This document shows, piece by piece, positions 2,965 to 23,100 of a stretch of 32,339 nucleotides of DNA. Location: the NCBI GenBank assembly GCA_024741835.1, contig JAENRP010000434.1, positions 1 through 32,339 on the forward strand, given 5' to 3'. Origin of the DNA: Diplocarpon mali (taxonomy: Eukaryota; Ascomycota; Leotiomycetes; Helotiales; Drepanopezizaceae). The notes beneath the pieces were generated by a model that saw only the letters and a program-made list of their open reading frames with translations, did no database searches and was not told the origin of the DNA. Made by a program: the position numbers and the translations under genes. How positions within the stretch are numbered: the stretch's first letter is position 1; the number at the start of each line of letters is the position of its first letter.

Positions 2965-3114
2965 ACTCGCAGGGTAGGACTAGGAGTCAAATTTCCTAAA
3001 AGATATTCCTTTATAAGACTATATAACTTAACTCGCGGTCTAGGCCTAGGAGTTGATTTAAAAACTTTCCTTTATAAGACTATATGACTTAACTTGCGAG
3101 GTGGGCTTAGGAGT
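2965..3114. repeat. Three 23-bp palindromic units, copy D 3' region
   Basis: Units at 2965-2987, 3031-3053 and 3092-3114. Each begins ACT and ends AGT with GC-rich inner arms. They lie between the end of RNase H and the 3' LTR. The same three sit at homologous places in the complete copy (4994-5142), so they predate the split of these two copies. Confidence 0.9.
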
Positions 3115-4658
3115 CGTTCTTAAGCCTATTAAGCCCTTACTATCTTCTATAACCTTAGCATATCTTTAAATGCTTTAAACTTTATAACTGTCTTTAATAG
3201 CTTTATAAATCCATCTGCTACTATTCGATTGGTTAGGATATAAGTGATTAATAACTTATTCTTTATAATAAGGTTATAGATAAAGTAGTAAGTAATATTA
3301 ATATATTTCGATCGCTTATATAAGTATGGATTCTTTATAAGTGTAATCGCTCTTATATTATCTACTTAAAGATTAATATAGTTCCTATCTTATTTAATAT
3401 ACTTAGCGAAACCTATATCTTTTAGAACTTAAGCGATTTATAATCCTTGCTTATAATTTGATAATATTAATATATATTCGGCCTTAGTGCTTGCGGTAGC
3501 TATTGATTTCTACTTCTTACTTTCCTACGATATAGGTCTGCTATATAGTACTATTATACTTCTAGATATACTTTTCCAACCTTTTATATTTGCCTAATCG
3601 GAATCGGTATATACCTTAAGCTTTGCGTTTATATATTTTATTAGTCTATATCTTACCTTTTATATAATTATTAATCGAAGGTACCTTTTAAGTCGCTTGA
3701 TTGCATTCTTATATTAAATTGTTAGATCCTTTAAGTTCTGACTAAGTTACTTAATAATAAAGGCGATATCTAGTCTTATATATACTATAGTATATATTAT
3801 TACTTTAATATCCTATTAGTACTTCTTTAAATCTCCTTTTTATTTATTTTTATTAATAGGCTTTAACTTATTATACTTTCCTTTAATTAAAGTACATTTT
3901 AGCTTAAAGTTAAAAGTATAAGTAAAGAGTCCTATTCGGTCTAGGATCTTCTTAATATACTACTCTTAGTCTAATTAGAGTTCTTATATAAAGCGGTTTC
4001 TTATAATATAAATACTAAGGATCTTATAAATTCCCTTTAGATCCTTAGTATTAAAACGTTTCTAAATAGTTATAAAGAACCAATTTAATTAAGTAGTTGT
4101 TTTCGCAGCTATAGCAATATCGTTAATATATAGTAGCAACTTGATTCTACGCTTAATATAAGTAAATAGATAAGGGTTAGCTAAGCTTTAAATAAATCCT
4201 ATTTCTACTAAAGTAAAGCTATATAAGAGGTTCTAATTATAGATTAATTACTTAAGCCTATAAATACTATAGAGTATATAGAGAGAGTGGCTATTATATA
4301 TAAGAATACTATTAGGTTAAGAGAGAAAAATCCGTTTCTTTATAATTGCTTTAGTAAATATATTTTTAATATTATACTATTTGTATTTAAGGTCCTTAGC
4401 GGCTACTATTGCTATAAATATGCAAAGGGTATTTATATAAACTATTAGCGCAAATATATTAAAGTAGTCTTTTCTATACTATTATGAAAAGCCCTTAGCT
4501 ATAAGTCTTGCCTTATAACGCTCTAAGGTCCTATTTATATATATTTTAATTGTAAAGACCTAATTTATTAATATTAGGTTTATATCCTTTAGTATTAGTT
4601 CCTCTATCTATATACTATTTATAATAAGAGAGCTTTTTCCTTTTAAATTGCCTTATTC
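3115..4658 (-). pseudogene. pol: Copia-1 pol fragment (copy D): RT and RNase H
   Basis: Minus-strand translation gives the copia RT and RNase H. The RT active site is Y-I-N-D (4119-4130) where family members have Y-V-D-D. The RNase H core D-S-D-x-A and the S-K-K-x-K-S-I-A-T-A-S-T-x-A-E-Y block (about 3475-3620) are recognisable, with Trp and Gln codons turned into stops. The 5' part of pol is missing because the complete copy inserted at 4659. Confidence 0.85.
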
Positions 4659-4855
4659 TATTGAGCTTAAGTGAGTCGGCGCAGTAGGTAATGGAAACTT
4701 CTAGAGGTCGATAGTCGATATATTAGTAAGAGTTAAGGAAGGAAGGTTACCCCTTTCTTACCTATAATTATATATATATATCAATATCCTATTAATTAAG
4801 CAGTAGGGTTATATGATAATATATTAGAATGATAGCTGTATTACCTATCTTAATA
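4659..4855 (-). repeat. Copia-1 3' LTR (complete copy)
   Basis: 197-bp LTR paired with 10564-10758. Differences between the pair look like transitions plus small length changes in the TATATA tract. Confidence 0.9.
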
Positions 4856-4993
4856 CCTTTACTTAGACCTTACTCTAATTGACCTGCAATTAGGAAAATA
4901 ATAACTATCCTTTTGCGCTAATCTAACTCTTAGGTATTTCTTTAAATTAAAAACAATTAATTAATAGCAACCTCTATTAAAATCACCAATCCT

Positions 4994-5142
4994 ACTTATA
5001 AAGCAGGACCAGGAGTCAAATTTCCAAAAGCATTCCTTTATAAGACTATATGACTTGACTTGCGGTCTAGGCTTAGGAGTCGATTTAAAAAACTTTACTC
5101 TATAAGACTATATGACTTGACTCGCAGGGCGGGCCTAGGAGT
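4994..5142. repeat. Three 23-bp palindromic units, complete copy 3' region
   Basis: Units at 4994-5016, 5058-5080 and 5120-5142, spaced 64 and 62 bp, homologous to 2965-3114. The rightmost overlaps the extreme C-terminus of pol in a different codon phase from the array at 8254-8636; the other two lie beyond the likely stop codon. Confidence 0.9.
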
Positions 5143-8100
5143 CGTCCTTAAGCCTGCTAAGCCCCTACTATCTTTTGCAATCTTAGTATATCTTTAAACG
5201 CTTTAAACTTTGCAACTATCTTTAATAGCTTTATAAATCCATTTGCTACTATTTAATTGATTAAGATATAAGTGATCGATAACTTATTCTTTGTAATAAG
5301 GTTATAGATAAAGTAGTAGGTAATATTGATATGTTTTAATCGCTTATATAAGTATAGATTCTTTATAAGTGCAATCGCCTTTGTATTATCTACTTAAAGA
5401 TAAATATAGTTCTTATCTTATTTAATATACTTAGTAAAACCTATATCTTTTAGAACTTAGGCGATTTATAATCCTTACTTGCAATTTAATAATATTAATA
5501 TATATTTAGCCTTAGTGCTTATAATAGCTATTGATTTCTACTTCCTACTTTCTTATAATATAGGTCTGCTATATAGCATTACTATGCTTCTAGATATACT
5601 TTTCTAACCTTTTATATTTACCTAATTAGAATTAGTATATACCTTAAGCTTTGCACTTATATATTTCGTTAGTCTGTATCTTACCTTCTATATGATTATT
5701 GATCGAAGGTACCTTTTAAGTCGCTTAACTGTATTCTTATATTAAATCGTCAGATCCTTTAAGTTCTGATTAAGTTACCTAGTGATAAAGGCGATATCTG
5801 ATCTTATATATACTATAGTATATATAATTGCTTTAATATCCTATTAGTACTTCTTTAGATCTCCTCTCTGCTTATTTTTATTAATAGGCTCTAACTTATT
5901 ATACTTTCCTTCGATTGGAGTACGCTTTGGCTTAAAGTTAGGAGCATAAGTAAAGAGTCCTATTTAGTTTAGGATCTTTTTAATATATTGCTCTTAATCT
6001 AACTAGAGTTCTTAAGTAGAGCGGTTCCTTATAATATAGATGCTAAGGATCTTATGAATTCCCCTTAGATCCTTAGTATTAAAACGTTTCCGAATTATTA
6101 TAAAGAACCAATCTAATTAAGTAATTATTTTCGCAGTTATAGTAATATCGTTGATATATAATAGCAACTTGATTTTACGCTTAGTATAAGTAAATAGATA
6201 AGGGTTAGCTAGGCTTTGAACGAATCCTATTTCTACTAAAGTAGAGCTATATAAAAGGTTCTAATCATAGGCTGATTATTTAAGCCTATAGATACTGCAG
6301 AGTATATAAAGGGAGTAGCCAGTATATATAGGAATACTATTAGGTTAGGAAAGAAAAATCCGTTCCTTTATAATCACTTTAATAAATGCATTTTTAATAT
6401 TGTACTATTTGCATTTAAGGTCCTTAGCGGCTACTATTGCTATAAATATATAAAAGGTGTTTATGCGAACTATTAGCGCAAACGTATCAAAGTAGTCTTC
6501 TCTATACTATTAGGAGAAGCCCCTAGCTATAAGCCTTACCTTATAATATTCTAGGGTCCTATCTGCATATATCTTAATTATAAAGACCCACTTTATTAAT
6601 ACTAGGTTCATATCCTTTAGCGTCGGTTCTTCTATTTATATACTATTTGTAATAAGAGAGCTTATCTCCTCTTAGATTGCCTTATTCTATACTGCTTTAT
6701 TCTTTAGGTTATTAATAGCTTTATTATATATCTTTAAAAGAGAGATTTTCATTATCCTTTTAGCAGTTAGGAACGCATTATCTTCGTCGAAGCTTTATTA
6801 GAGTTTAAGCTTATAGATCTTATGCGCTATTATGGCCTAGATACGCTTGGACTCGCGTTTGTCTAAGGTGTCTTTCGGTTCTAGGTCTCTATTCCTCTTT
6901 AAAGGCATAGGTTTGGCTATAGGTTCCGTAGGCTTATTATTTAAGGAACCGCTTTCTAGTAGTAAAGGCTTATTATTACTTGTACCTATTTTAGGAATAT
7001 CCTTTACTATAAGTGCTTTAATTAAAGGGATAATAATATTAAAGTTATTCTATACTTTAGGCAGTTTGCGGACGATAGGAATGGTCTATTCGGCCTTTAG
7101 GCGACTAATAGGTCGTCGATTAGCGGGTACACTTAATATACCTAAGCTTAAAGAGAGGGGTTATTGGTTCGGCTTAATAGTATTACTATCGAGTGGTATA
7201 CCTTGCAAATCTCTAGGTATATAAAGCTTTAAAGATAGCTCCCTCCTATTTTGAGATTTATTAAACTTAACTACTAAGGATATAATTACTCACCTTAGGT
7301 CTAGTGCATATACTATCTATTACTTTATTATCTATTTAATATACTTAATAAATATATACTCTCTACCTTAGTCTATTAGCTTCTTGCTCTTTATACCTGC
7401 GGGCTAGGACTTTAGGCTGATATAGGAGTAGTAGACGCTTTTAAAGACGCGGATATAGTCTAGGCTTAGTTTCTATTTAAAATATACCTTATATAGCAAT
7501 ATTCAGGTGCTATTGACTATTAGTCTACTACCTATTCTATTTTATAGGTATACGTCTGCCTTAACTATAAGGTCTTAGAATTCTAGTAGTAGGTTAGTAT
7601 CTTGCAGTAGAGCGCGATAATTAGTCTTTATTTACTAGATGCTTCGCTTGGTGATGCTATTCTAATAGGAACCTTTGTATATTATAATTAGTTTATAATA
7701 AACTCCTTATTTTACCTATTTATTAAGCTTTGCCTTAATCTCTAATGCGTTATTAGACTTAATAGCTATTAGCTTTAACTAGGTCTAGCGTTCCTCTATC
7801 ACTTTCTAAGTTTCCAGCTTTTTTATAAGCTTAGATTTAGTCTTAGCGCAAATGGTCTATATCTATTAAGTGGAGTTATCTACTATTTAAGAAAACCAAT
7901 TATTTCCTCTGATTAAGGTTATAAATAGTCTAGTAGTATCGATGGATATTAGCGCTAGTATCGAATCTTTCTATAGACTAAGCTTAGTTTGCATCCGATT
8001 TCGAAGTTTTATTAGCTTGCAAATTCGGCATATTAAGTGATCCTTCGGTACTTGGATCTTCTATTTTAGGGTCAAGACCTTATGCAAGCCCTTCAATTTC

Positions 8101-8253
8101 TTTAGCCTTAGATATGCGAATCTTTTATATATTAGCTAATACCTTAATAGGCTTTCAGCTTCTAATAGCTTTAGTAGCCTATTATTAGTCGATGCTTTAT
8201 CATTAGCAGCTAGAAAGGACTAGTAATAGCAGTTCAAGGTTTTGCCATTTTCT

Positions 8254-8636
8254 AATTACAAGCCTAGCTTAGGAGTCGTTTTTAGTAAAACCGTAAGATC
8301 TACTCGCAGTCCTAGCTTAAGAGTCGTCTCTAACGAATTCGCGAATTTCACTTGCAGTTCTGGCCCGAGAGTCGTCGTTAGCGAATTTGTAGAATCCACT
8401 TGCGGTCCTGGCCTAGGAGTTATTTCTACTAAATTCACTTATGATCCTAGCTTAAGAGTTATCTTTAAGGATACTTTGCACTTTACCTATAGTCTTAGCT
8501 TAAGAGTTATTTTTACGAATTTTACTTGCGATCCTAGCTTAAGAGTCTATCTATTCTCCTTATCCTCGCTCAATTATATTAGGGTAAAGAGTGCACTTTC
8601 CTTAAAGGAATCTACTTATAGGTCTGGCCTAGGAGT
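8254..8636. repeat. Array of eight 23-bp palindromic units inside copia pol
   Basis: Units start at 8254, 8302, 8350, 8398, 8437, 8485, 8524 and 8614. Spacings are 48, 48, 48, 39, 48, 39 and 90 bp, all multiples of three. In the minus-strand pol frame each begins on a codon boundary and reads as variants of T-P-R-P-G-P-Q-V, giving a repeat of about 16 residues between protease and integrase. The plus strand is also stop-free here (8242-8670), a by-product of the palindrome; I do not regard that as a gene. Confidence 0.9.
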
Positions 8637-9272
8637 CAATTTTTATAATATTACCTTTAAGATAATATAAAGTCTATCTTTGATTTTAGCTTTAAAGATC
8701 ACTTTATAATTATTATTTATAAACTATATAAATTGATTATTAAAAACTCTTATACAATTTAACTCTATATAGATCTTGCAATTAAATAAAAGATTAATAC
8801 CTAGGCTAGGTATAAGGAGAATATTTTATAAAAGGAAAGAAATACTAATGATATTCATCTCTACTATACTTATTAAGTCTATATACAACCTTTTACTATT
8901 AACCTTAATAGAGCGCCTTTTTATTTTAATAAGCGGGCCTTTAAATAGGTAGGGTTTATTAATTATATATGCTATGCAACTAGTATCATTATATCAGTTG
9001 GATTTAGGGATCTTATAGAAATCGGCTTTTAAGATATAGGCATCTTTATTATAATTATCATTTAAATTATTAGAAGTGGATTTAGGTTCAAATGACCTAC
9101 TATTATTATTAGAGGTATTTGCTAAAGTTTTGGCTAAATAGCCTTTTCCTTTGCCTTTCCTTAGTAGTTATAGCCTTCGGCAGGATAAGGGCAGTTTGCT
9201 TCTTAACTTCTGCTTCAATTGCTTCTTAATATTAAAGCTAGCGACTATATTGATTAGTTGCCTTTTAACTTT

Positions 9273-9311
9273 ATAATTAGTAATATTATAAGTACTTTTA
9301 TAAAAGTAGCA
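9273..9311 (-). other. Copia-1 nucleocapsid zinc knuckle, RIP-destroyed
   Basis: Minus-strand codons keep the CX2CX4HX4C spacing, but positions 2, 3 and 4 (C, H, C) are all Tyr. TGC/TGT to TAC/TAT and CAC to TAC are exactly CpA-to-TpA changes on one strand or the other. Confidence 0.8.
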
Positions 9312-10163
9312 TCTTTAATAAGCTTAAGGGCTCGTCCCGCGCTCCTTCCTCTTCTTAGGCTTATTATTGCCCTATAATACGGCATTTGCCGATTTAGAGC
9401 ATCCTTCGAGGTCTTACTTGATAGTTTAAAGGAAGTCGATCTTCTTATAGATCTTAAGGTTAGGTTAGATAAGAAGAGATTGTTTTGCAATAGCAAACTT
9501 AAGAAGGAGGCTATTGAGTAAGAAACTAAAAAGCTAAGTTTCCTTAAAAGTTATAGCTATCCTAGGATCTATAGCTCTTACTCTCCTCCTCGCTTTATAT
9601 AGTATAGACTAGGTAGAGTCTATATTTATATCTATATCCTTACTATCTTTGTCTTTTCTATATTAAAATAAAGTAATCTGCTATAGCAGATGCTAGGTAT
9701 TAAGGGTAGTTATTTAAGAGTATTTTGCCTTTAATATATCCTATCTTATCTTTGCATTATTATAAACTTAAATAAAATCTTAGTCTTTATTGCTTAAACC
9801 TCTATTGATCTTAAGCTTGCATTTAGCTAAGGCTAGCCTATACTCCTTCTCCTTTTCTATATTTAAAATCTGCCTTTAGGATTCTCGGTTATTATCTACT
9901 GAAGCTCTTAGGCTAAGCTTATTTAATATATCTGGCAAATCTTTAGCAGTTGTATTAGCTATTAAAGTAGAAGTAGACGAATCGGTAAAGGGAGTATAGA
10001 AGGCTATTCTTACGTATTTAATAAGTGTCTTTTAAATCGCTATTTCAATGCCTTTGCTCTTAAAGTAAAGCTCTAAATTGTTAAACTATTATTGCCAGTT
10101 CTTCTAAGAGAGTTAGAGGTCTTTAGGCTTAGTGTTTCGATTGGAATTGGATACTATTGCCAT

Positions 10164-10563
10164 TTCGAATAGAATTGCGTTTAAAATCAAATAAATTAAA
10201 TAGTTAAAGGCACTCCTCTTATTAAAAAGTTGAAATGATTAAATAGCGGGTATTATAAAAGTATTAAATAAGGAGGAAGTCCTCTTATCGAAAAGGGTTT
10301 TTAGGCTATAACGCAGGGAATCATACCTCTTATAAAATATAGTAAAGCAAGGAATCATACCTCTTATAGTACTAAAGGGGTTATAGAGCAAGGAATCATA
10401 CCTCTTATAATATAGGTTGGCTAAATAGGGAATCATACCTCTTATTTGCCAATTGCTTGCCTTTTACTATAAGTCTTATTCAACTTCCTACTAATAGTTG
10501 CGGCGTAAGTGCTTTCTAAGGGAAGTTAATAATCTATTATCAGTCTATCTGGGGCTTATAACT
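10164..10563 (-). other. Copia-1 5' leader with repeats and primer site
   Basis: Untranslated leader of the complete copy. Four copies of GGAATCATACCTCTTAT (plus-strand view) lie at about 10317-10444. The half-tRNA-iMet site lies at the right end next to the LTR. The short reading frame 10239-10436 is only these repeats translated. Confidence 0.75.
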
Positions 10564-10758
10564 TATTAAGCTTAAGTGAGTCGGCGCAGTAGGTAATAGA
10601 AACTTCTAGAGGTTAATAGTTGATATATTAGTAAGAGTTAGGGAAGGAAGGTTACCCCTTTCTTACCTATAGCTATATATATATCAATATCCTACTGACT
10701 AAGCAGTAGGNTCATATGATAATACATCGGAGTGATAGCTGTATTACCTATCTTAATA
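10564..10758 (-). repeat. Copia-1 5' LTR (complete copy)
   Basis: 195-bp LTR, followed by TATTC (10759-10763), the target duplication. One undetermined base (n) lies at 10711. Confidence 0.9.
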
Positions 10759-10771
10759 TATTCTATACTAC

Positions 10772-10967
10772 TATTAAGATAGGTGATACAGCTATCACTC
10801 TGATGTATTATCATATGACCCTACTGCTTAATCAGTAGGATGTTGATACATATATAGCTATAAGGAAGAAAAGGGGTAACCTTCATTCCCTAACTCTTAC
10901 TAATATATCGACTATCGACCTTTAAAAGCCTTTATTACCTACTGCGCCAACTTACTTAAGCTTAATA
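10772..10967 (+). repeat. Copia-1 LTR of copy G
   Basis: 196-bp plus-strand LTR that starts only 13 bp after the complete copy's inverted LTR. The intervening TATTCTATACTAC is target (copy D RT). GGTTATAAGCCC at 10968-10979 is the primer site. Confidence 0.9.
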
Positions 10968-11275
10968 GGTTATAAGCCCTATATAGACCGATAATAGATT
11001 ATTAACTTCCCTTAGAAAGCACTTGCGCTGCAACTATTAGTAGGAAGTTGAATGAGACTTATAGTAAGAGGCGAGCAATCGGCAAATAGGAGGTATAATT
11101 CCCTATTTAGCCAACCTGTATTATAAGAGGTATGATTCCTTGCTTTATAACCCTTTAGTACTACTAGAGGTATGATTCCTTGCTTTACTATGTTTTATAG
11201 GAGGTGTGATTCCTTGCGTTATAGCTTAAAAACCCTTTTTAATAAGAGGACTTCCTTCCTATTTAATACTTCTAT

Positions 11276-11522
11276 TATAGAGACCTGGAAGTGGAGGATC
11301 TCGTGACATAGGTCATATAATCAGATAAGGACTAAGAAAGGGGTATATATAGGACTACTATTATACTTAAAGATAGCGCGCAATGCTAACTACCTATTCT
11401 ACTTCCAATTAGTGAATTGTCCTAGTTCTTGTCTTTAAAGAGCCCGCTTATGGTGCTTCCTCCCTCTTTGTCTTTAGTCTTTACGTAGGCCTATTCTTAT
11501 ATTATTCCTACTCCCTTTTATA
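11276..11522 (+). repeat. GO-a left LTR
   Basis: 247 bp, homologous to 13964-14208, 19340-19583 (reverse) and 22001-22244 (reverse). It contains the well-conserved core AGATAGCGCGCAATGCTAAC. Confidence 0.88.
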
Positions 11523-12199
11523 TTAGTGACCTACGCAGGGACGATTCCTTTAAGATTTCGTCTTTATACAACTTCTCCTTTTGATTCTCTTAGTTCGCAG
11601 ATAAGAGATCAACCCTTTGAAAAAAAACCCCTTTTAAGATAATAATCATTTAATTATTTGTAACTATTAGTTATCATTCCTCTATTATCAACCTTGCAAT
11701 CACTTAGTTATTTGGAACTGTCGATTGCCACTCTCTACTATTAATAACCTTAGGTTTTCCTATTTCGGCCCTTATCCCGCCTCTCTTACCTCTAATCTAA
11801 AAAGCTTAAATTATCAGCTTATTAATACGATTATCAGATTTCCAGCCTTTCTAATATAAAGAAGTTTGATTAGCTATAATAGCTACTTTAAATAATAGCA
11901 GTTTCGAGTATTTATATAATACTAAACGAAAGCTCTAATTAGGAGTATCTCCTCAATTTTCTTAAAAAGCTAAATCGGATACTTTAGCCGCCTCTACTTA
12001 ATAGAACTCTATTCTTTACTTTAGAAATAACTCCTAGGATATACTAATTTGGAAAACCAATAGGAATTATCCTAAAAGCTAAGATAAATCTTTCTTAAAA
12101 ACTTTATCTTAGAAATTAGTCTTTAACTTAATAAACCTTTTCTTACTATTAGTAATTACAATACCCTTATTTATTGCTTTATACCTATTAAAGAAGTCT
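11523..12199 (+). other. GO-a leader, no gene seen
   Basis: AT-rich untranslated region after the primer site. It includes a run of A then CCCC near 11620 and two related stretches around ATTTAATTATTTGTAACTATTAG and CACTTAGTTATTTGGAACTGTCG (about 11648-11730). I see no convincing coding sequence. Confidence 0.55.
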
Positions 12200-12240
12200 T
12201 AATAAAGTATAAATAAACTTTTTATAGAAATCGGATTTTT

Positions 12241-12263
12241 ACTCTTAAGCTAGGCTTGCGAAT
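12241..12263 (-). repeat. 23-bp palindromic unit (GO-a, first)
   Basis: Reverse-oriented unit (ACTCTTAAG... to ...GCGAAT). Its counterpart in GO-b is 21284-21306, which is better preserved and reads as the consensus. Confidence 0.85.
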
Positions 12264-13216
12264 AGGAATATAAAAATGCAATTTTATATACCTTAAGTTC
12301 TTTATCTTCCCCTTTAGCAATTGCACCTACTTTTTCAATATTAACACTTGAAAATATTAAAAATATCAATTTTAAACCTCCTTTTAACCCTTTGCCTAAA
12401 TCTTTTTAAGCTTGCCTTAATCACTTTAAGATTGACTTAGATTTTGAAAACTCTTTAAAATACCTTAGGTCTTATATTCGACCTAGCTCCCTTTTTATTA
12501 AAATAAATAAAGCAATAATAGCTGCCTTTAAAGCTATTACTAATCATTTTCCCCTCTTTAGTTCCCTTAGCGCTCCTTATTTTATTAAAGCTAATATTAT
12601 TAATTTCCTTAAATAATATAAGGAGACTTATTATAATTTTAGTATTAGATATAATAAGATAATTAATTGACTTCCCTACTATTATAATTAAATTAGTAAA
12701 GATATTATCAAATCTCTACTTAAATAGAAGCTTTATAAGTCTTAGGAACTACTTATTAAAGCTTTTAAGTCTGAATTCCAGAAATTTAATAGATAGTAGA
12801 TTTGTAATACTTTGGCCTTTCTAAAGGAGTTTATTCTTATTACTCGTACTCCTAAGGAACTTAAGAATTACTATTAGACTTTTACTTATATATCAAACGC
12901 CTTAATTAGCTAGAAAATACTTAGCAAAGTTGAAAGAGGCCGCCTTTTCTTACTTAGATTACCTACTAGCCTTTATAATAAGATTATTAACAATTTTAAG
13001 ATTAATAAGTAAGACTTTATAACCTTTGCCTTATTTAAAGAGTTCTTGGCCTTTGCTTTAAAATCAGATCTTAATAAGAGAACTATTAATACTATAGAAT
13101 AGGAAAAAGCCCTTACTCCCTCTTATACTAAAGACCTTAAGAGCCTGGTTTAAGAATACTCAAAGGCTCTAGAAGTAATAGAAGAGGCAAAGAGAAATCT
13201 AGTGGTAATTCCCTTT

Positions 13217-13239
13217 ATTCGCAGTCTTAGCCTAAGAGT
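13217..13239 (+). repeat. 23-bp palindromic unit (GO-a, second)
   Basis: In frame within the GO-a gag. Counterpart in GO-b at 20305-20327. Confidence 0.88.
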
Positions 13240-13647
13240 AAAATCTACCTTAAAAATCAAGGAACTTAAAGTCTAGTTTTCTAAACTCTATATTTAATAT
13301 TTAAAAACCTTAATTAAAGGCCTTCTTTAAGAAACTTATTGCGCCCTTTAGTTTAATAATCGATAGGCTTTAAAAGGTAAAAACTAGTATATAAATTCTA
13401 AATACCTAAATTCAACTTCCCTTAGGTTAAATAAGTAAGTTACTACCTTAGAAAGGCTTAATAATTGAATATAGCTATATTAAAGAAATTCTTAAATTAT
13501 TAATTAAATTTTATATAAAGCTTAGATTTTCTTTAATAAGGATGCCTCTTAAGTTAGTTAAGGCATATATACTTAGGATTACTTAAAATTGTCTTCGAAT
13601 TTTCTTTAAAATTGCGATTTAATAGCTTTAATAACTTTGAGCTTTTA

Positions 13648-13670
13648 ATTCGCAGTCCTAGCCTAGGAGT
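13648..13670 (+). repeat. 23-bp palindromic unit (GO-a, third)
   Basis: ATTCGCAGTCC to CTAGGAGT. Counterpart in GO-b is 19874-19896. Confidence 0.9.
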
Positions 13671-13776
13671 TACGTTATTAAAAAAGGAAAAGGAGTTTTT
13701 ATTATTTTTATTTGTTTACTACTGCACCTCTCCTCTTCCCCTTTTCTCTCTCCCTTTATATATTTCTTTAAAATCC

Positions 13777-13803
13777 ACTCGCAGGCCTAACCCGCGNNNN
13801 NNN
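13777..13803 (+). repeat. Palindromic unit cut by an assembly gap
   Basis: ACTCGCAGGCC and nine more bases, then seven N (13797-13803), then a run of A. The GO-b counterpart (19747-19769) is complete and followed by a T run on the plus strand, so the gap hides half a hairpin and a homopolymer. Confidence 0.8.
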
Positions 13804-13963
13804 AAAAAAACCCTTTCTCCTCTCCTTACCTTTACAACTTTAAGTACTAACCTTACTTATACTTATTATTTTTATAAATAAGGATTAGTATTCTCGATTT
13901 GCAAGAGTCTTATATTCTTTACTAATAATAGCAAAGGCTGCTACTTAAGTTAATTAGGATATA

Positions 13964-14208
13964 TATAAAGACCTAGAAGTAAAGGATCTTATAATATAGA
14001 TTATATAGTTAGATAAGGATTAAGAAAGGGGTATATATAAGACTACTATTATACTTAAAGATAGCGCGCAATGCTAACTACCTATTCTACCCTTAATTAG
14101 TGAATTGTCTTAGTTCTTATCTTTAGAGAGCCCGCTTATAGTGCTTCCTCCCTCTTTGTCTTTGGTCTTCACGTAGGCCTATTCTTATATTGTCTCCTCC
14201 CTCTTATA
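13964..14208 (+). repeat. GO-a right LTR
   Basis: 245 bp, ends CTCCCTCTTATA, followed by the duplicated CTAT and the resumed Copia-1 leader. Confidence 0.88.
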
Positions 14209-14303: not shown

Positions 14304-14463
14304 ACAGCAATAGCTTCTAATTCCGATCGAAATACTAAACCTAGAGACCTTTAATTCTCTTAAAAGAACTGGCAATAATAGTTCAACGATTTAGAGCTTT
14401 ACTTTAAGAGCAAAGGCATTGAAATAGCGATTCAAAAGATACTTATTAAATACGCAAGAATAG
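14304..14463 (+). pseudogene. gag: Copia-1 gag fragment (copy G)
   Basis: First 53 codons of gag, matching copies B and C. The start position reads ACA rather than ATG. It ends at AATAG, which is the gypsy target duplication. The gypsy integration point is about 12 bp downstream of the position where the TRIM entered copy B. Confidence 0.75.
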
Positions 14464-14704
14464 TGTTACGACTTGCTCTGAAGCGTACAGAGGGGCGATA
14501 ATCGAGTAACGCTGACTGTATTACCTCAAGAGGTACGCTATATAATAGAGAAGAAAAGATAAAGAAGAGAGAGTCTCTAGTAGAGCTCCTCCAGAATAAG
14601 TACAGGTGCTTTACTAGCGTGCACGTGATCTAGCCACCTCGCTACCTTAGTATGCACCTGACTTCGATACGTGATATAACTGTATATATAATGCGGCTAT
14701 AATA
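14464..14704 (-). repeat. Gypsy 3' LTR
   Basis: 241 bp. Left edge TGTTACG intact, right edge TATAATA (from CGTAACA). Confidence 0.92.
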
Positions 14705-14721
14705 CTACCCCCCCCCCTTTG
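14705..14721 (-). other. Gypsy polypurine tract
   Basis: On the minus strand this reads CAAAGGGGGGGGGGTAG directly before the 3' LTR, the expected place for the plus-strand DNA primer. Confidence 0.8.
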
Positions 14722-15199
14722 AAAAACTGCGCCTGCGCAGTTATATCTATAGGCGTATTGTCCTTTAAGTCCTTATAATTGTTAATTCTATTATTATATG
14801 ACTTAAGTCAGCTTAATAGCGCCCTTAGTGGCCTTTTAACTTAAGGGTTCTTTAGATGGAAATCTTAAATAGTATATAGCGCTATTATAGCATTAGAGTA
14901 TAGGTACTATTTAAGGTCTTTATTAGCTCCTTTCCACTTAATCTAATATTCGAGCTTCCTAGCTTAAATACGGGATCCGATTATTTCTTTTATCTCCTAT
15001 TTCTCTTATTCTAGTAGTACTTTAATTAGGGCAGGAGGTTCTTAAGCTTGGCCTAGCAGAGAGTTGGGAATGTATTTCTATAGTAAGTGGGAGTAGAATA
15101 TAAGATAGATCGAATAAAGCAAATTAGGCAATTGAAGCTTTTAGCTTTCTCTTAGCTTTTCTAGTACTTTTACTAGGCTATACTACTTATTAAAGAGCT

Positions 15200-16100
15200 T
15201 TCGGCTCAGCCGGTCCAGTTTCCAATTTTTAATACTAATTAGCATATTATCTCTTATAGTTTAATCAATTAGCTAATAGTAGAGATCTGTAAGCCGTTTT
15301 ATTTTAGCTTATTATACTTAAAGAGATAATTAAGCGAATTAGACTACTTTTTAAGCTTTAATAGCTATATAAAGTACTATTTTATAATTTAATCTCTTAG
15401 TTACTATCTATAGAAGCTTTAGATTAATTAAATTCTAAGAGGAGCGAGCTTTATAGCTGTTTAGCACTTAGAAAGGGGAAATTTACCTTAAGGATTTGTA
15501 AAGTAAGGTTAATTAGGCAATATCTATCAAAGGCAAGAGATGACTCTAATTGTCTTAGCAGTATAAGTAGAACGGTTTAAGGCGTTATTTTAAGTACTAG
15601 TTTATAATTTTAATTTAGCTATCGATATTAGGGTTATAAGTTATAGTTAGCTTGACCTTTATACTTAGTATCTAATAGAGCTCTTTTTAAAAGGGAGAGA
15701 CGAATTAAGCGCCTTTATCTAATAGAATTGAGTTAGGCATACCGAAATAGCGTATCTAATGAATTAAAAACAACTTTGCAAGGCCTTTTATATCAATTGT
15801 CTTATAGCATAGGATTGATACTGCCTTCTTTCATAATCGGTCTATTATTTTTAGTATAAAGTTGTAGCCGATTTTATTAAGTAGGAGCTTTATAAAATCC
15901 ATTATTAGGTACTAATATGCTTATTTAAGGATTGGCAAGGGTTATAGGAAACCTAGTGCTTTATTATATTAAGCTTTTATCTTTAAATAATAATAGTTTT
16001 AAATATATATGCTAATATTGCTGCTAAGGCTTTTCTAATAGTATTTTCTTCCTATTAGAAGTCTGGTCTTTCTAATTCTTATATATATATAACGCAAGGT
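15200..16100 (-). pseudogene. pol: Gypsy integrase, decayed
   Basis: Minus-strand frame (first base 2 modulo 3) reads the retroviral-type integrase core: D in I-I-D-R-L (about 15845), then Y-F-G-M-P-N-S-I-L-x-D-K-G-A-x-F with the second Asp kept (about 15730), then x-Y-N-P-N-I-D-S-x-I-K-I-I-N-x-Y-L-K-x-R-L where the catalytic Glu after T-D-G-Q-T has become Lys (about 15610), and a C-terminal L-L-P-L-I-D-I-A stretch. It is in a different phase from RT and RNase H, so an indel lies between about 15900 and 16360. Confidence 0.85.
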
Positions 16101-16364
16101 TGCTTATGCATATGATAAATTAGGGCTATTTGTAGTTCGGAAGGTTAGGATAGTATAATAAGTCTACCTTAGAAGAAGAGTTTGCCTTAGCTGAGTTTAT
16201 AGTCGAGGCTATGGCTTTATACCTTGTCTTAGAACTTCTATAGCTTAAGGGAGGTCTTATTAGCTTAAATAACCTTATTAATAATATAGTAGTTCGCTAT
16301 ATTGTACTCGACCCTGGACGTTAGGTCGGTAGGTGCCTCTATTAGTGCGATTGGTATAATTGTT

Positions 16365-16432
16365 ACTTATAGGCCGGGCCTAAGAGTGGAATTGATTTGC
16401 GCTAAAGTCACTTATAGGCCAGGCCTAGGAGT
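16365..16432. repeat. Two 23-bp palindromic units between RNase H and integrase
   Basis: 16365-16387 and 16410-16432, start to start 45 bp (15 codons). On the minus strand both begin on a codon boundary in the pol frame and read T-(P/L)-R-P-G-L-stop-V, the stop being a decayed Gln or Arg codon. The plus-strand 63-codon frame here is a shadow. Confidence 0.9.
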
Positions 16433-16439
16433 AGAATCG

Positions 16440-18950
16440 CCTTTAATAGTAAGTACTTTTATAAAAAGCTTATCATTAGGTAAGAGCTGCTAATAGTATA
16501 AAGCTCGTTTCCTAGCCTTAAGAGGGGTTAGCTCCTGGTCTCGATATAAGAGTGTATTAGCTAGCGTATTCGTTATACCTATTTAATATATAATAAGGAA
16601 GTTGAAGTTAGCGAAGAACTCCGCTTAGTAAGCCTACTAGGCTATTAAGTCCTTAGTTATTATAAAGTACTTAAGGACTTTATAATCTATATATATATAT
16701 ACTGTTTTCTAAGCCTTAAGTAGCTTTGCCTTATACTAATAGAATGATTTAAAAATCGCTAGGAGCTCCTTATTATAAATAAGGTAATTTAGCTTAGTGT
16801 TATTTATAGTCTTTAAGAAGTACTTAATTAAATAGTAGTTATGATCTTCTTAGAATTAGGAGAATACGCTAGCAACTATACTATTAAAGGCGTTAGTCTT
16901 AAGCCTTATCTACTTTTAAAGGTGATAGTAGTATAAAATCAGGGTCGTTTAAAGGCTTAAGCGTAGAGCTTCTTAAGCTTTCTTATAAGCGTTATTAAAG
17001 TTAAAAGGATTATTTCCTATAAGAGCTATTAAGGGTCGGCAGATATGACTATAGCCTTGAATAAACCTTTAATAAAAGTTATAAAACCTTAGGAAGCTTT
17101 ATACGCTACGTATATTCTTAGTGTATTTCTACTCTTAAATAATTAAGACCTTATTAAGGTCTACTTCAATTTTGTAAACTCTAATAATAAACCTTAAGAA
17201 CCTAGTCTTAATAACCTTAAACTCGCTTTTCTTAATATTTACTTAAAAGCTATAGTATTAGAGAATTCCTAAGATCTTCTTAATATAAATCTTATAATTA
17301 AAGGAGTTTTCTAAGTAGATTAGAATATTATTTAAGTAGGTAGAGTAGAAATCGTTAAGGTAGTTAAGGAGAATATTATTAATAAACCTTTGAAAGGTAG
17401 CAGGCCTATTTATTAGCTTAAATAGCAAAACCTTATATTTATAAGTCCTATAATGTATGCGAAAGGTAGTTAGGTCCTTAGCGTCAGCTAATATACAGAT
17501 ATAGTAGAAGGCTTATTATATATTGATTTTTATAAAAACCTAAGCTTTTAATATATATACTATTATTTTATTAATAAGTGGAATCGGGTAGGGGTCTTTC
17601 TTTATTAGGGCATTCAGTTTCTGATAATTGATATATAAACGTAAGGAGCTATTAGCTTTTTTAATAAAGAGGATTAGGGCTACCTAAGGGGAACTCGAAG
17701 CTTTAATAAATCCTTTATATAGGTTCTTAAGAATATAGCTCTTGACCTTTAAGAGCTATTCATTAGTAAGGCGGCAGAGGGGTTCGATTATTAAGTTGTT
17801 CTCGCCTATCAGTTCGATTTTATAATCTACCCTTAGCCTTGTTTCTAGCAGCTGATCAAAGGCCTGGCGATTGAAGACATTCTTAAACTTAGCGTATTAA
17901 GGCAGGAGCTTTTAGTCTATTAGCTTATTATTACTCTTATACTTAGCTTATAGCGCCGAACTAAGGCTAAAGGAGCTAATTTCAACTTGCTTAACCGATT
18001 CTTAGCGATTGATTTCTTAATGATTGATTTCTCGGTAATTGATTTCTTAGTCTAGATCGTAAATAGAGCTTATAAATATGAACTCTTTAAGCGCCGGTTC
18101 TTAAGTTTATATAGCTTATTTTGCCTTAGTTATAAAGCGGTAGTAAAGGGCGCCGATTACTAAGGTTGAGATTAGGCTGATTTAGTAAGCCGTCTTTAAA
18201 GGAGCGGTTCTCTTTATTAAGAGAGGGAGCAAGGGGTTTAGTACTCTTAGTAAGGCCTTCTTTATATAGTTCAGATCTCTTTTCAAGTCTTTAAAGAAAC
18301 TGCTATCTCTAGGTCTATAAGAGGCCACTCGTAGGCTAGGCCTAGGAGTAGAATTCGAGTTCGCAGTTTTCACTTGCGGGCTAGGCTTAGGAGTGGAATT
18401 CGAGGCGTTATTACTTACTAGTACTAAGAGCTAGGCTCGGGCCATTCTTAGGTCTTTATCCTCGGCGTCTATTATAGTTGCTTAATGATCGACGTCTTAT
18501 TAAGCTATTAAGGGTTTTATTAGCTATAAGAGATCGATTAATATATATCAATTAAAGTAGAGGATAATAGGTATATCCTTAAGCTAAGAGATACTATTTT
18601 TCCCCCTTTTATAGGACTATTTAAAGTTATAGTACTCTAGGAACTTCCTACTAATTAAAATGTCAGTTGCTTTTAAGCTTATAATTAGGAAAGGGAAGTT
18701 GATTTATCGCTTATCGATTATAAGGGTAAATAAGACGGCGAATCGAATGGTTTCTCCCTTAAGGCTATTATAGCTAGTAAAGGTAATAGGTTTAGGCAGT
18801 TTAATAAACTTCACCTTAAGTCTTTAAGAGAGCTAGTATACTAAAGACGTTTTAATAATATTAAAAATATTAGCTCTACTATTAATATAGGCAACTATTT
18901 TAATAAATGATCCATTTTAAGCTAGTTTCATAAGAATTAAAAATTGGCGG
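16440..18950 (-). pseudogene. pol: Gypsy protease, RT and RNase H, decayed
   Basis: One minus-strand phase (first base 1 modulo 3). Protease, about 18900-18600: A-x-I-N-S-R-A replaces the usual A-L-I-D-S-G-A, so the catalytic Asp is Asn, followed by L-P-K-P-I and L-I-S-R-K-F-L. RT, from about 17710: G-F-I-K-A-S-S-S-P, L-F-I-K-K, S-L-R-L-Y-I-N-Y, and the active site Y-L-N-N (17327-17338) instead of Y-L-D-D. RNase H, 16900-16560: Y-N-K-E-L-L-A-I, I-D-Y-K-x-L-K-Y-F, E-F-F-A-N-F-N-F, then N-T-L-A-N-T-L (A-D-A-L-S in relatives). Two in-frame palindromic units sit between protease and RT. Confidence 0.88.
18327..18394. repeat. Two 23-bp palindromic units between protease and RT
   Basis: 18327-18349 and 18372-18394, again 45 bp start to start. 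The minus-strand pol frame reads S-T-P-R-P-S-L-R-V-A through the first. They lie in the linker, not in a folded domain. Confidence 0.9.
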
Positions 18951-19079
18951 CCGCCTATTAATAGGCGGGAATTAAAATCTAAGTCTTTTTATAAATTATA
19001 ACCTATACTATAGTAGGAGTCTTTGCTATAGCTTAGCAGTTTCCTAATAGTAGGTCGTTTTCTATCTTAACTTTAGCTA

Positions 19080-19339
19080 CTATAAACTTGCCCTACTTCT
19101 TTAGCTTAAGGCAGTCTATCGTATAATAACTAAAGGCTCTACAGTTATAGTAGAGACTGGATAATAGCTTCGGGCTAGCAGACCTTTCTTAATAGGCCGC
19201 CGGCAAAGGGGAATAAGTGCAAAGAGCTAAGGAGGTAGCTATAGCTATAGGTCTTTATAACTCCCTTTTTAATATACTAAGGACGCGGTCTTTTAAAAGG
19301 GAGAATGCAATAGCAAGGGCGACTTATTAAGCGTTATAG
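19080..19339 (-). pseudogene. gag: Gypsy gag, C-terminal part with zinc knuckle
   Basis: Minus strand, first base 0 modulo 3. It reads from the GO-b insertion point into a zinc knuckle at 19111-19152 with CX2CX4HX4C spacing; the first Cys and the His are Tyr, the other two Cys remain. It joins in frame to 22249 once GO-b and one duplicated ATAG are removed. The protease downstream is in the phase that a -1 shift would reach. Confidence 0.85.
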
Positions 19340-19583
19340 TATAAGAGGGAGGAGACAATACAAGAATAGGCCTACGTAAAGACCAAAGACAAGAGGGAGG
19401 AAGCACTATAAGCAGGCTCTCTAAAGATAAGAACTAGGATAATTCATTAGTTAAGGGTAGAATAGGTAGTTAGTATTGCGCGCTATCTTTAAGTATAATA
19501 GTAGTTCTATATATACTCCTTTCTTAGTCCTTATCTGACTATATGACCTATATTATAAGATCTTCTACTTCTAAGTCTTTATA
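19340..19583 (-). repeat. GO-b 3' LTR
   Basis: 244 bp, reverse complement of the GO-a LTR. Confidence 0.88.
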
Positions 19584-19746
19584 TATATCCTAACTAACTT
19601 AAGTAGCAGCCTTTGCTATTATTAGTAAAGAATATAAGACTCTTCTAAGTCGAGAATACTAATCCCTATTTGCAAAAACAATAAGTGCAAGTAAGATTAG
19701 TACTTAAAGTTATAAAGGTAAGGAGAGGAGAGAGGGTTTTTTTTTA

Positions 19747-19769
19747 ACTTATAGGTTAGGCCCGCAAGT
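19747..19769 (-). repeat. 23-bp palindromic unit (GO-b)
   Basis: ACTTATAGGTT to CCGCAAGT, next to a nine-base T run. It is the complete counterpart of the gapped unit at 13777. Confidence 0.88.
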
Positions 19770-19873
19770 GGATTTTAAAGAAATATATAAAGGGAGAGGG
19801 GGAAGGGAGGGAGGTAGTGCGGTAGTAAACGAATAAAAATGATAAAAACTCCTTTTTCTCCTTTAGTAATGCG

Positions 19874-19896
19874 ACTCCTAGGCTAGGACCGCGAGT
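19874..19896 (-). repeat. 23-bp palindromic unit (GO-b)
   Basis: ACTCCTAGGCT to ACCGCGAGT, counterpart of 13648-13670. Confidence 0.9.
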
Positions 19897-20289
19897 TAAA
19901 AGCTTAAAGTTATTAAAGCTATTAAATTGCAATTTTAAGGAAAATTCGAAGACAATTTTAAGTAATCCTAAGCATATATGCCCTAACTAATTTAAAAGGC
20001 GTCCTTGCTAAAGAAAATCCAGGCTTTATATAAAATTCGATTAACAATTTAAGAATTCCTTTAATATAGCTATATACGATTATCAAGCCTTTCTAAGGTA
20101 GCAACTCGCTTATTTAACTTAAGGGAAGCTGAATTTGGATATTTAAGATTTACATACTAGTTTTTGCCCTCTAAAGCCTATCGATTATTAAACTAAGAGG
20201 CGCGATAAGTTTCTTAAAAAAGACTTTTAATTAAGGTTTCTAAATGTTAAATATAGAGTTTAGAAAACTAGGCCTTAAGTTCCTTGATT

Positions 20290-21300
20290 TTTAAGGCAGC
20301 TTTTACTCTTAGGCTAGGACCGCAAGTAAAGGGAATTACTATTGGATTTCTCTTTGCCTCCTTTATAACTTCTAGAGCCTTTGAGTGTTTTTAAACTAAG
20401 CTCTTAAGGTCTTTAGTATAAGAGGGAGTAGGGGCTTTTTCCTATTTTATAGCATTAATAGTTCTCTTACTAAGATCTGATTTTAAAGTAAAGGCTAAGA
20501 ATTCCTTAAATAAGGCAAAGGTTATAAGATCTTGCTTATCGATCTTAAAATTCTTAATAATCTTATTATAAAGGCTAGTAGGTAATCTAAGTAAGAAAAG
20601 GCGGCCTCTTTCAACTTCGCTAAGTATTTTCTAGCTAATTAAGGCGTTTGATATATAAGTAAAAGTCTAATAGTAATTCTTAAGTTCTTTAAGAGTGCGC
20701 GTAATAAGAATAAACTCTTTTAAAAAGGCTAAAGTATTACAAATCTACTATTTATCAAATTCCTAAAATTCAGCTTTAAGAGCCTTAATAAGTAGTTCCT
20801 AGGACTTGCAAAGCTTCTACTTAAGTAGAGATTTGATAATATCTTTGTTAATTTAGTTATAGTAGTAGGAAAGTCGATTGATTATCTTATTATATTTAAT
20901 GCCGAAATTATAATAAGTCTCCTTATATTATTTAAGGAAATTAGTAATATTAGCTCTAGTAAAATAAGGAGTATTAAAAGAACTAAGAAAGGGAAAATGA
21001 TTAATAATAGCTTTAAAAGCGGCTATTATCGCTTTATTCGTTTTAGTAGGAAGGGAAGAGCTAAGTCGAATATAAGGCTTAAGGTATTCTAAAGAGTTTT
21101 TAAAATTCGAATTAATCTTAAAGTGACTAAGGCGAGCTTAAAAAGATTTAAGTAAAGGGTTAAAAGGAGGTTTAAAATTGACGTTTTTAATATTTTTAAG
21201 TATTGATATTAAAAAAGCAGGTGCAGTTATTAAAGGTAAAGATAAAGAACTTAAGGTATACAAAATTGCATTTTTATATTCCTACTCGCAGGCCCGGCCT
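20290..21300 (-). pseudogene. gag: GO-b Gag-like protein, decayed
   Basis: Reverse-strand counterpart of the GO-a gag, recognisable for example at about 20571-20630, where the same V-E-R-G-R-L-F-L-L-R-L-P-T block can be read. Decayed independently, with stops at other Gln codons. No enzyme domain follows. Confidence 0.7.
20305..20327 (-). repeat. 23-bp palindromic unit (GO-b)
   Basis: ACTCTTAGGCT to ACCGCAAGT, inside the 3' part of the GO-b gag. Confidence 0.88.
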
Positions 21301-21306
21301 AAGAGT
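21284..21306 (+). repeat. 23-bp palindromic unit (GO-b), near consensus
   Basis: ACTCGCAGGCC-C-GGCCTAAGAGT. One of the best-preserved units; only the two inner dinucleotide positions and one decayed pair break the palindrome. Confidence 0.9.
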
Positions 21307-22000
21307 AAAAATCCGATTTTTATAGAAAGTTTATTTATACTTTGCTAAGACTTCTTTAATAGGTGCAAAGTAGCAAATAAAGGTACTGCAATTACTAGTA
21401 GTAAGTAAAGGTTTATTAAATCAAAGACTAATTTCTAAGATAAAGTTTTTAAGAAAGATTTATCTTAGCTTTTAGGACAATTTCTATTAATCCTTAGAAT
21501 AAAGGGATCTTTAAAAATAATTTTAAGGCAGTTTTTAAAGTTCTATCAAGCTAAGGCGGCTGAATTATTAGATTTAGATTTCTAAAGATTCTAAGGAGAC
21601 ACTTCCAATTGGAGTTTGCGCTTAGTATTACTTAAGTACTTGAAACTACCGCTATTTGAGACTGCTATTATAAGGTTTGCCAAACTTTTTATACTAGAAA
21701 GCCGAAAATTCCGAAAACCTTAGAGTTAAGGAGGAAAATAGGGGTTTTTAAAGCAAAGCCGAAAAGGGAAAATCTAAGGTTATTAATAGTAAAGAGTGGC
21801 AATCGATAGTTCCAAATAATTAAGTGATTATAAGGTCGATAATAGAGGAATGACAACCGATAGTTATAAATAACTAAATGATTGTAGATTTAAGAGAGGT
21901 TTTCAAAGGGTTGATCTTTTATCTGCGAACTAAGAGAATCAAGAGGAGAAGTCGTATAAAGACAAAATCTCAAAGGAATCGTCCCTACGTAGGTCACTAA

Positions 22001-22244
22001 TATAAAAGGGAGGAGATAATATAAGAATAGGCCTACGTAAAGACTAAAGATAAGAGGGAGGAAGCACTATAAGCGGGCTCTCTAAAGACAAGAACTAGGA
22101 CAATTCACTAGTTAGAGGTAGAATAGGTAATTAGCATTGCGCGCTATCTCTAAGTATAATAGTAGTCCTATATATACCCCTTTCTTAGTCCTCATCTGAC
22201 CATATGACCTATGTCATAAGATCCTCCACTTCCAGGTCTCTACG
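22001..22244 (-). repeat. GO-b 5' LTR
   Basis: 244 bp, keeps more CA/TG than the other three GO LTRs. Confidence 0.88.
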
Positions 22245-22248
22245 ATAG

Positions 22249-23100
22249 GCTTCTTCTTACTTGATATTATAAGCCTTGCAGTCTGCAATAGTTAAGAACT
22301 CATTTAAAGTAGTATAATTGTTATTCATTTTATACTTCTCTATTTAAAGGTTGTTCTTTAAGGCTAAGGAGACCTTTTTAAAGACGTTATCGAACTAGCG
22401 AGACTAATCAATCTTATTAGCTATAGCAAAGGGTAATAAACTTAGATCGGAACTTATTATATAATATTAAACTTATAATTAGCCTACTATACTTAAGCTT
22501 AGTAGATTAAATATAGTTATAGTTAAAGAACCTCTAATCTAAGACCCTAAGGACATTAGTAGTATATATAAACTTACTAGTAAAGATAAGATCTATATAT
22601 TATAGGATTAAGTTTTAAGCTTTCCCTATTATAAACTTAAAGTAGGCAATAATTTAATCCTCTTTTAAAGTGAAGTTGCTTAAGTACTTTTAAATAAATA
22701 CTTTTATAGCTATCTTTTAAGCATTATAGGTAATTTCGCCTTAATAGTCGCTAAAATGGGTTTAAGGGTACTTAATCTAATAAGGGTTAACGGCTAGGAC
22801 TAAAGGTCGGATAATCGGAAGGTAGTAGTCTAAGGGAGGTAGTAAGTCGGCGGTAAGGGACTAAGTATTCTAAGGGCTAGCACTTAAGAAAGAAGGGGTA
22901 GTAGTATTATTTTAAAAAGCAGCAGCTATAGTAGCGCTAATAAGGTTCGCAATTTCGGCCTACTAAGCAGCTAAGAAGAAAGGGGCTAATATAGTAAAAG
23001 TAGATATCATTAAAGAGAGTATATCTTCTTCCTTAACTTTAATCGATAGTAATAAGGTATTTTAAGAATCCACTTATAGGCTAGGCCTAAGAGTGGAATC
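22249..23100 (-). pseudogene. gag: Gypsy gag, N-terminal part
   Basis: The minus-strand frame running into the GO-b junction reads a plausible Gag capsid segment, e.g. M-N-N-N-Y-T-T-L-N-E-F-L-T-I-A-D-C-K-A-Y-N-I-K just before the break, and continues in frame with 19339. The upstream limit is uncertain: the phase stays mostly open past the palindromic unit at 23072-23094. I do not see a clear start codon. Confidence 0.65.
23072..23094 (+). repeat. 23-bp palindromic unit (gypsy gag/leader)
   Basis: ACTTATAGGCT to GGCCTAAGAGT, with the same GGAATC flank seen at the other gypsy units. Confidence 0.88.

Follow-up and report, generated by a model that had tools for sequence, protein, structure and literature searches.

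A discrete palindromic unit of about 35 bp common to unrelated LTR retrotransposons of Diplocarpon

The window analysed in this work, i.e. the whole 32,339-nucleotide stretch of contig JAENRP010000434.1 from Diplocarpon mali, is occupied by several LTR retrotransposons, of which the following carry the palindromic unit described below:

5943–6614 (-): Copia-1 reverse transcriptase domain (RVT_2; domain match)
7248–10157 (-): Copia-1 gag-protease-integrase region (match to P0041)
11276–14208 (+): gag-only LTR element copy 1 (LTRs at 11276–11520 and 13964–14208)
14685–23268 (-): gypsy element, interrupted by a gag-only element (matches to P0024/P0025/P0042)
19337–22248 (-): gag-only LTR element copy 2, an insertion into the gag gene of the gypsy element (LTR and protein matches)

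The gag-only family, hereafter the third LTR family, possesses no recognisable enzyme domain, and no Rfam family was detected in the window at the gathering score. A RIP-tolerant scan found 25 copies of a 23-bp palindrome in the window versus none in 30 dinucleotide-preserving shuffles of it at each of four thresholds, and two further degraded copies, at 8485–8507 and at 13777–13799 (the latter interrupted by Ns), were recognised by eye. The resulting total of 27, with 14 copies in Copia-1, eight in the gag-only elements and five in the gypsy element, is the one given by the first-pass annotation, which had also named a similar count in shuffled sequence of the same composition as grounds for rejection. 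The copies are:

2965–2987 (+): 3' part of a Copia-1 copy, probably untranslated (scan; outside protein matches)
3031–3053 (+): 3' part of a Copia-1 copy, probably untranslated (scan)
3092–3114 (+): 3' part of a Copia-1 copy, probably untranslated (scan)
4994–5016 (+): other Copia-1 copy, 3' part past the RT-RNaseH match (scan)
5058–5080 (+): other Copia-1 copy, 3' part (scan)
5120–5142 (+): other Copia-1 copy, 3' part (scan)
8254–8276 (+): Copia-1 protease-integrase linker array, in frame (scan; residue ~628 of P0041)
8302–8324 (+): Copia-1 linker array, in frame (scan, protein match)
8350–8372 (+): Copia-1 linker array (scan; 48-bp spacing preserves the frame)
8398–8420 (+): Copia-1 linker array, in frame (scan, protein match)
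8437–8459 (+): Copia-1 linker array (scan; 39-bp spacing preserves the frame)
8485–8507 (+): Copia-1 linker array, degraded (by eye)
8524–8546 (+): Copia-1 linker array (scan)
8614–8636 (+): Copia-1 linker, in frame (scan; residue ~508 of P0041)
12241–12263 (-): gag-only copy 1, site D, upstream of the putative ORF (scan)
13217–13239 (+): gag-only copy 1, site E, inside the putative ORF (scan)
13648–13670 (+): gag-only copy 1, site F, downstream of the putative ORF (scan)
13777–13799 (no strand assigned): gag-only copy 1, site G, cut by Ns (by eye)
16365–16387 (+): gypsy RNaseH-integrase linker, in frame (residue ~394 of P0025)
16410–16432 (+): gypsy RNaseH-integrase linker, in frame (residue ~379 of P0025)
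18327–18349 (+): gypsy protease-RT linker, in frame (residue ~617 of P0042)
18372–18394 (+): gypsy protease-RT linker, in frame (residue ~602 of P0042)
19747–19769 (-): gag-only copy 2, site G (scan)
19874–19896 (-): gag-only copy 2, site F (scan)
20305–20327 (-): gag-only copy 2, site E, in the putative-ORF frame (scan; frame from coordinates)
21284–21306 (+): gag-only copy 2, site D (scan)
23072–23094 (+): gypsy gag N-terminal part, in frame (protein match; in 20/20 further gypsy copies)

The scan found no copy in the second Copia element (RT match 27481–26222) or in the short 79-bp-repeat element (1062–1553), the TRIM of the first-pass annotation, both of which had been described there as free of the unit. 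The accompanying statement that it never lies in an LTR holds for the LTRs checked, the 245-bp ones of the gag-only element.

Genome-wide, the 23-mer is represented by about 2,300 copies, with no matches for the reversed-pattern control. A genome search for copies outside the carrier families, proposed along with the original observation, placed the centre copies of all 79 sampled stretches in sites of four LTR families, one of them a second Copia family outside the window; the stretches were taken from the best-preserved listed copies, which leaves room for rare ones elsewhere, and five off-centre copies (L009 1937, 3323 and 4208; L022 452 and 1274) stand outside this count with their context not assigned. 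Four arbitrary 10-kb stretches (40 kb, 38–59% GC, probably genic) contained no copies, and no exact match to the palindrome was found in prokaryote genomes. The match in viral contig L093 is taken to be a chance one, being alone in DNA of 64% GC, with no second copy.

Comparison of flanks across families extends the unit to about 35 bp, arranged as RAWTY, N, the 23-mer, N and RAWTY, with an approximate consensus of RAWTY N ACTCGCGGKCC N GGMCCAGGAGT N RAWTY. Conservation thus reaches 6 bp past either end of the 23-mer, in the form N-R-A-W-T-Y. At the second base outward all flanks (68 of 68) have a purine; they belong to 34 flank groups from which copies with short or N-containing flanks were excluded and which include array units and one-site splits (site A in two groups, site C in eight), so that they stand for about 27 separate places. 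Cross-family identity is raised only at outward positions 2–6 (0.457 vs 0.290 shuffled); past position 6 it is at background, Copia and gypsy flanks resembling each other no better than shuffled ones, in line with the original observation that the carrying families have no other sequence in common. In a search for longer segments common to the families the top score came from adjacent array units, and the restricted test found none. The form with CAGG, ACTCGCGGGCCNGGCCCAGGAGT, occurs at no fewer than 27 exact places in the genome among the matches listed, and where the initial consensus has TAGG, this has probably in many cases arisen from CAGG by mutation; the GC/AG asymmetry of the arms noted at that time is real, while the length of 23 bp has to be replaced. 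Taken together, the results support a discrete palindromic unit common to unrelated Copia, gypsy and third-family LTR elements.

The unit had been placed in linkers or untranslated parts, but many copies prove to be translated, in-frame portions of the polyproteins: 112 of 193 copies lie inside protein matches (19 in Copia-1, 71 in Copia-3 and 22 in gypsy), in linkers between polyprotein domains in all three families, and all 112 have frame offset 0, i.e. one reading frame, a count inflated by descent and corresponding to about eight separate coding places. The remaining 81 fall in untranslated parts, the third element, short stretches and unassigned sequence. With orientation called from the 2-bp asymmetry, 41 of the Copia-3 copies within matches have one orientation and 30 the other. 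The encoded peptides are T-P-G-P-G-P-R-V or T-R-E/G-P-G-P-G-V, and the D. coronariae proteins P0001, P0041, P0042 and P0024–P0026 carry linkers with TPGPGPRV/TREPGPGV in both orientations. Owing to its odd palindromic form, the unit has an open frame 1 on each strand, with a near-identical peptide from both, and would hence be tolerated whichever way round it lies. Within coding parts the arrays are spaced by 39, 45, 48, 54, 66 or 90 bp, multiples of 3 in every case, with the peptide repeating at distances of 13–22 residues and once of 30; in the Copia-1 3' part the spacing is 61–66 bp.

The best protein match points to a Diplocarpon close to D. coronariae as host. With the array of P0001 as query, six proteins were retrieved, P0001 itself among them, and every one belongs to D. 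coronariae. Among the 40 homologues found, the other 36, many of which carry no species name, did not match the peptide pattern, in a screen which used the frame-1 pattern and is hence blind to other frames, as the frame count from protein matches is not; the named non-carrier taxa are few, namely Rhynchosporium, Podosphaera, Sclerotinia and some distant plants or algae. In the same genome, a remote gypsy family of 34% identity lacks the unit at the corresponding linker.

The first-pass annotation proposed that the unit had moved on its own or by template switching, and of this the discrete cross-family unit stands, while an independently mobile DNA element finds no support. The flanking duplication for which it suggested looking, a mark of MITEs as well, was not significant in any of 48 combinations (best p 0.007, before allowing for the 48 tests), and none of the 59 alignments inspected out of 293 contained a convincing empty site at a homologous position, these alignments being judged to stem from a tandem hairpin-like repeat at site A, from differences in array units or from chance. 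Likewise, the unit was present in each of 20 additional gypsy gag copies taken from a set of 62 matches. Array copies look like tandem duplications of the unit with its spacer and not like separate moves.

It is quite reasonable to suggest, and we consider it rather probable, that this unit of about 35 bp is a selfish coding micro-element of palindromic form which has spread through unrelated Diplocarpon LTR retrotransposons in the manner of a Rickettsia palindromic element (RPE). It would arrive in a retrotransposon as a whole unit, possibly when the reverse transcriptase switches template from one co-packaged RNA to another, a route that would account for its being carried by retrotransposons only. 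It would then be tolerated in interdomain gag-pol linkers and in untranslated parts, in either orientation, survive in coding parts where it is in frame, be lost elsewhere, and multiply after arrival as tandem arrays with spacers, being selfish and presumably not useful. A more specific version, advanced tentatively, is that of a parasite of retrotransposons, a 35-bp palindrome moving only at the RNA or cDNA stage by template switching in virus-like particles over the short RAWTY homologies. Were one RAWTY to be duplicated on arrival, the retrotransposon would gain 30 bp net, or ten codons, and the insertion would thus be in frame by construction.

Instead of a selfish DNA unit, selection might have acted on the peptide, with the proline-glycine-rich TPGPGPRV spacer being a useful module of linkers recombined between families and the palindrome a by-product. 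The linker positions in three families and the arrays remaining in frame agree with this, and so do the transversion differences of the 23-mer in coding groups, which are found at X9, X12 and X15, all third codon positions, with the exception of X2, as a peptide-level explanation would predict. The same DNA, however, is present in eight flank groups classed by the analyst as non-coding (out of 34, with one site entering twice), both orientations occur, and cross-family likeness stops 6 bp outside. Moreover, the T of ACT and the A of CGA/GGA, degenerate third positions, are invariant in the 23 coding groups, whereas X12 and X24 take all four bases, and we regard the peptide module as unlikely.

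Somewhat less likely again is a cis-acting DNA or RNA signal, such as a protein-binding dyad or an RNA dimerisation or packaging site, serving a machinery common to different and non-autonomous elements. Dyad symmetry with well-fixed arms would suit such a signal, as would its presence in the family devoid of enzyme domains, with one copy upstream of the putative ORF. Against it, the second Copia of the window lacks the unit, one linker holds up to eight copies, and mismatched pairs are common. No pair is more complementary than in shuffled data (lowest p 0.13; pairs which never vary are uninformative), and a hairpin maintained by selection was rejected, compensatory changes giving it no support.

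That the unit descends vertically from a single ancestral retrotransposon, or that long segments recombined later, the case named at the outset as refuting movement, is very improbable: within a family the sites are inherited, as all 20 further gypsy gag copies illustrate, but between families descent is largely contradicted by Copia and gypsy flanks no more alike than shuffled ones past 6 bp and by the lack of the unit in the homologues found and in the distant gypsy family, the homologous proteins found outside Diplocarpon, which lack the peptide, making a single ancestor unlikely. Chance or a composition artefact is already refuted by the empty window shuffles and genome-wide control and is given practically no weight.

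With the selfish micro-element retained as the preferred reading, close parallels are the protein-coding palindromic elements of Rickettsia and Wolbachia, whose mechanism of movement is, to our knowledge, unsolved. If the reading is true, a nuclear counterpart with some two thousand copies, confined to retrotransposons in the sample, would offer tractable genetics for the question of an RNA route, unrelated retrotransposon superfamilies would have a defined short sequence in common, and polyprotein linkers would serve as landing places. The GC clusters of yeast mitochondria are also short GC-rich palindromic dispersed repeats, but mostly intergenic, whereas the fungal unit is nuclear and in frame in retrotransposons.

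Among the matches listed from the open-access literature, none described an element of this kind in LTR retrotransposons of fungi, and the word stem palindrom is absent from the available parts of the D. coronariae genome papers PMC11527701 and PMC12158172. According to the GalEa report (PMC5445492), those fungal Copia elements, like ours, contain a conserved palindrome, but it is a 9-bp one adjoining the 5' LTR, where, in a single clade of Copia, it takes the place of the normal priming site, while the present unit is multi-copy and lies in linkers and outside coding parts in several families. PARCEL repeats, as described in PMC2996958, are tandem dyad-symmetric coding repeats in different proteins, associated with mobile elements in some taxa; the fungal unit is likewise dyad-symmetric DNA encoding tandem peptide repeats, but PARCEL peptides are amphipathic, highly variable and 25 residues long, and those encoded here are Pro-Gly peptides of about 10–12 residues with conserved DNA. 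The comparison with RPEs made in the first-pass annotation is a fair one, as some RPEs and Wolbachia palindromic elements are stated in PMC3767692 to have inserted in ORFs without destroying them, at solvent-exposed positions. Like them, the fungal unit is a dispersed palindromic repeat which lies within ORFs with the frame unbroken, its origin there by insertion being likely; unlike the bacterial elements of 100–150 bp, it measures about 35 bp, is nuclear, and resides in the sampled LTR retrotransposons, where it also forms tandem arrays.

The RIP-tolerant scan (RIP, repeat-induced point mutation) recovered 25 copies of the 23-mer from the window and none from 30 dinucleotide shuffles of it, which answers the proposal that shuffled sequence might give similar counts. 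Together with two degraded copies beyond the scan, at 8485 and 13777, visible on inspection of the sequence, this reproduces the 27 copies (14, 8 and 5) of the first-pass annotation. In the 49.4-Mb genome (676 contigs, the window included), the pattern with up to three mismatches had match counts of 1234 and 1176 for the two strands, and a reversed control pattern had no match at the same threshold. Both orientations were matched by 6 of 132 such sampled copies, therefore the true genome number is near 2,300.

We fetched 79 stretches (20 + 40 + 19), each centred on a listed copy with 0–1 mismatches, and every centre copy was surrounded by the flanks of a recurring site lying within an LTR element. 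The site-bearing families in this sample are Copia-1, gypsy and the window's gag-only element, all three already named as carriers, and a fourth one, a second Copia family (Copia-3), which is absent from the window yet contributes 96 of a set of 193 sampled copies. Four arbitrary 10-kb stretches of 38–59% GC, probably genic, contained no copy. Five off-centre copies (1937, 3323 and 4208 in stretch L009, 452 and 1274 in stretch L022) have flanks matching no other sampled site; the one at 4208 is an almost perfect palindrome.

According to Pfam placement, two Copia-3 copies follow gag and precede a weak protease match, three lie between the SH3-like integrase end and the reverse transcriptase (RT), and one is downstream of RT. 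Copia-1 possesses an array in the protease-integrase interval, plus three copies at the 3′ end, past the RT-RNaseH match, and the gypsy copies are located in the N-terminal part of gag, the protease-RT interval and the RNaseH-integrase interval. A distantly related gypsy family of the same genome (34% identical) has the equivalent linker without a palindrome copy. The Pfam search of the gag-only element returned no domain, and its stop-codon distribution hints at an ORF that may include site E in frame, preceded by D and followed by F and G.

No closed frame from stop to stop reaches 150 residues in the window (1–32339), as expected from heavy RIP. A translated Copia copy (X at stops) has as its best match P0001 of Diplocarpon coronariae, whose genome DC1_JKI is described as containing 34% repeats and 20.7% Copia (PMC11527701). 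Own-genome copies reach 93% identity to P0001, with internal stops in all 31 scored matches, and likewise pieces up to 96% identical to the gypsy protein P0042 contain stops. These matches place the host in Diplocarpon, as D. coronariae or a close relative of it. Inside matches to D. coronariae proteins lie 112 of the 193 copies, all 112 starting at codon position 1; by the 2-bp asymmetry, those of Copia-3 divide into 41 of one orientation and 30 of the opposite one. Frame 1 is open both ways, reading T-P-G-P-G-P-R-V or T-R-E-P-G-P-G-V. P0001 harbors two TREPGPGVNS and three TPGPGPRVN-type units. In the Copia-1 match P0041 the pattern recovers six units and visual inspection about eight, and the gypsy copies of the peptides occur in P0042 and P0024-P0026. 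The pattern was unmatched in the remaining 36 of 40 homologues found, many without a species name. A search of 5.8 billion proteins with the P0001 array (E ≤10) returned six proteins, the query among them and all six from D. coronariae, out of 620 candidates of similar length.

The 23-bp unit is indeed common to the families, with its length to be corrected. In 34 flank groups, the six bases outside it read N-R-A-W-T-Y on both sides, with a purine at the second outward base in 68 of 68 flanks. Cross-family identity is 0.457 at outward positions 2–6 versus 0.290 shuffled, and equals background from position 7 on; thus the common unit is about 35 bp with sharp ends. RAWTY is self-complementary, and positions 0, 12 and 24 are unconstrained. 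Among 23 coding groups, transversion differences inside the 23-mer are confined to third codon positions (X9, X12 and X15), X2 being the lone exception; X3 and X21, also third positions, are invariant, and eight groups classed as non-coding differ further at X10 and X19. Such variation suggests DNA-level constraint or recent descent, together with peptide-level tolerance. It is possible that the unit is a peptide module, and possible too that it is a cis-acting site. Compensatory change between the arms was looked for and none was seen.

In coding parts, array units are spaced by multiples of three; in the Copia-1 3′ part, the spacings are 61–66. Copia-3 copies contain one, two or three recognised units, and gypsy copy L090 has one where others have two; overlapping or gapped matches suggest extra or absent stretches in other copies as well. 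Tandem duplication or loss of the unit together with its spacer explains the variable array size. Adjoining the site A palindrome in the Copia-3 3′ part (L009 about 5030–5120 and equivalents) there is a different, A-rich tandem repeat of about 30 bp with inverted arms CACC...GGTG.

Several other features of the window were recorded. A second gag-only LTR element (19337–22248) sits within the gypsy gag gene, split near P0024 residue 334. Fragments at 2268–2630 and 14310–14465 match the start of Copia-1 gag (P0041) apart from the main element. At 1062–1553, two 79-bp direct repeats, 97% alike, surround a GC-richer stretch; together they resemble a short LTR element and seem younger than the neighbouring sequence. 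At 1–315, a copy of the Copia-1 end segment ends close to the first-palindrome position of its relatives at 2965 and 4994, where it abuts an inverted segment (1–316 region), perhaps through truncation at the palindrome or perhaps by chance.

The best-supported reading is that of a selfish palindromic coding unit which would enter retrotransposons and persist where it is in frame in linkers or lies outside coding parts. Transfer may proceed by template switching during reverse transcription, a route consistent with the unit-sized sharing, the occurrence of both orientations and the seeming confinement to retrotransposons. Target duplication at the copies was looked for and could not be shown. 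In gypsy gag the unit was present in 20 of 20 further copies fetched, so it arrived there before those copies spread.

The unit belongs neither to Rickettsia palindromic elements nor to PARCELs, as length, host and peptide differ. It shares with PARCELs, as characterized in PMC2996958, the nature of palindromic coding DNA, and the analogy with Rickettsia palindromic elements drawn in the first-pass annotation holds for the similar way of working outlined in PMC3767692.
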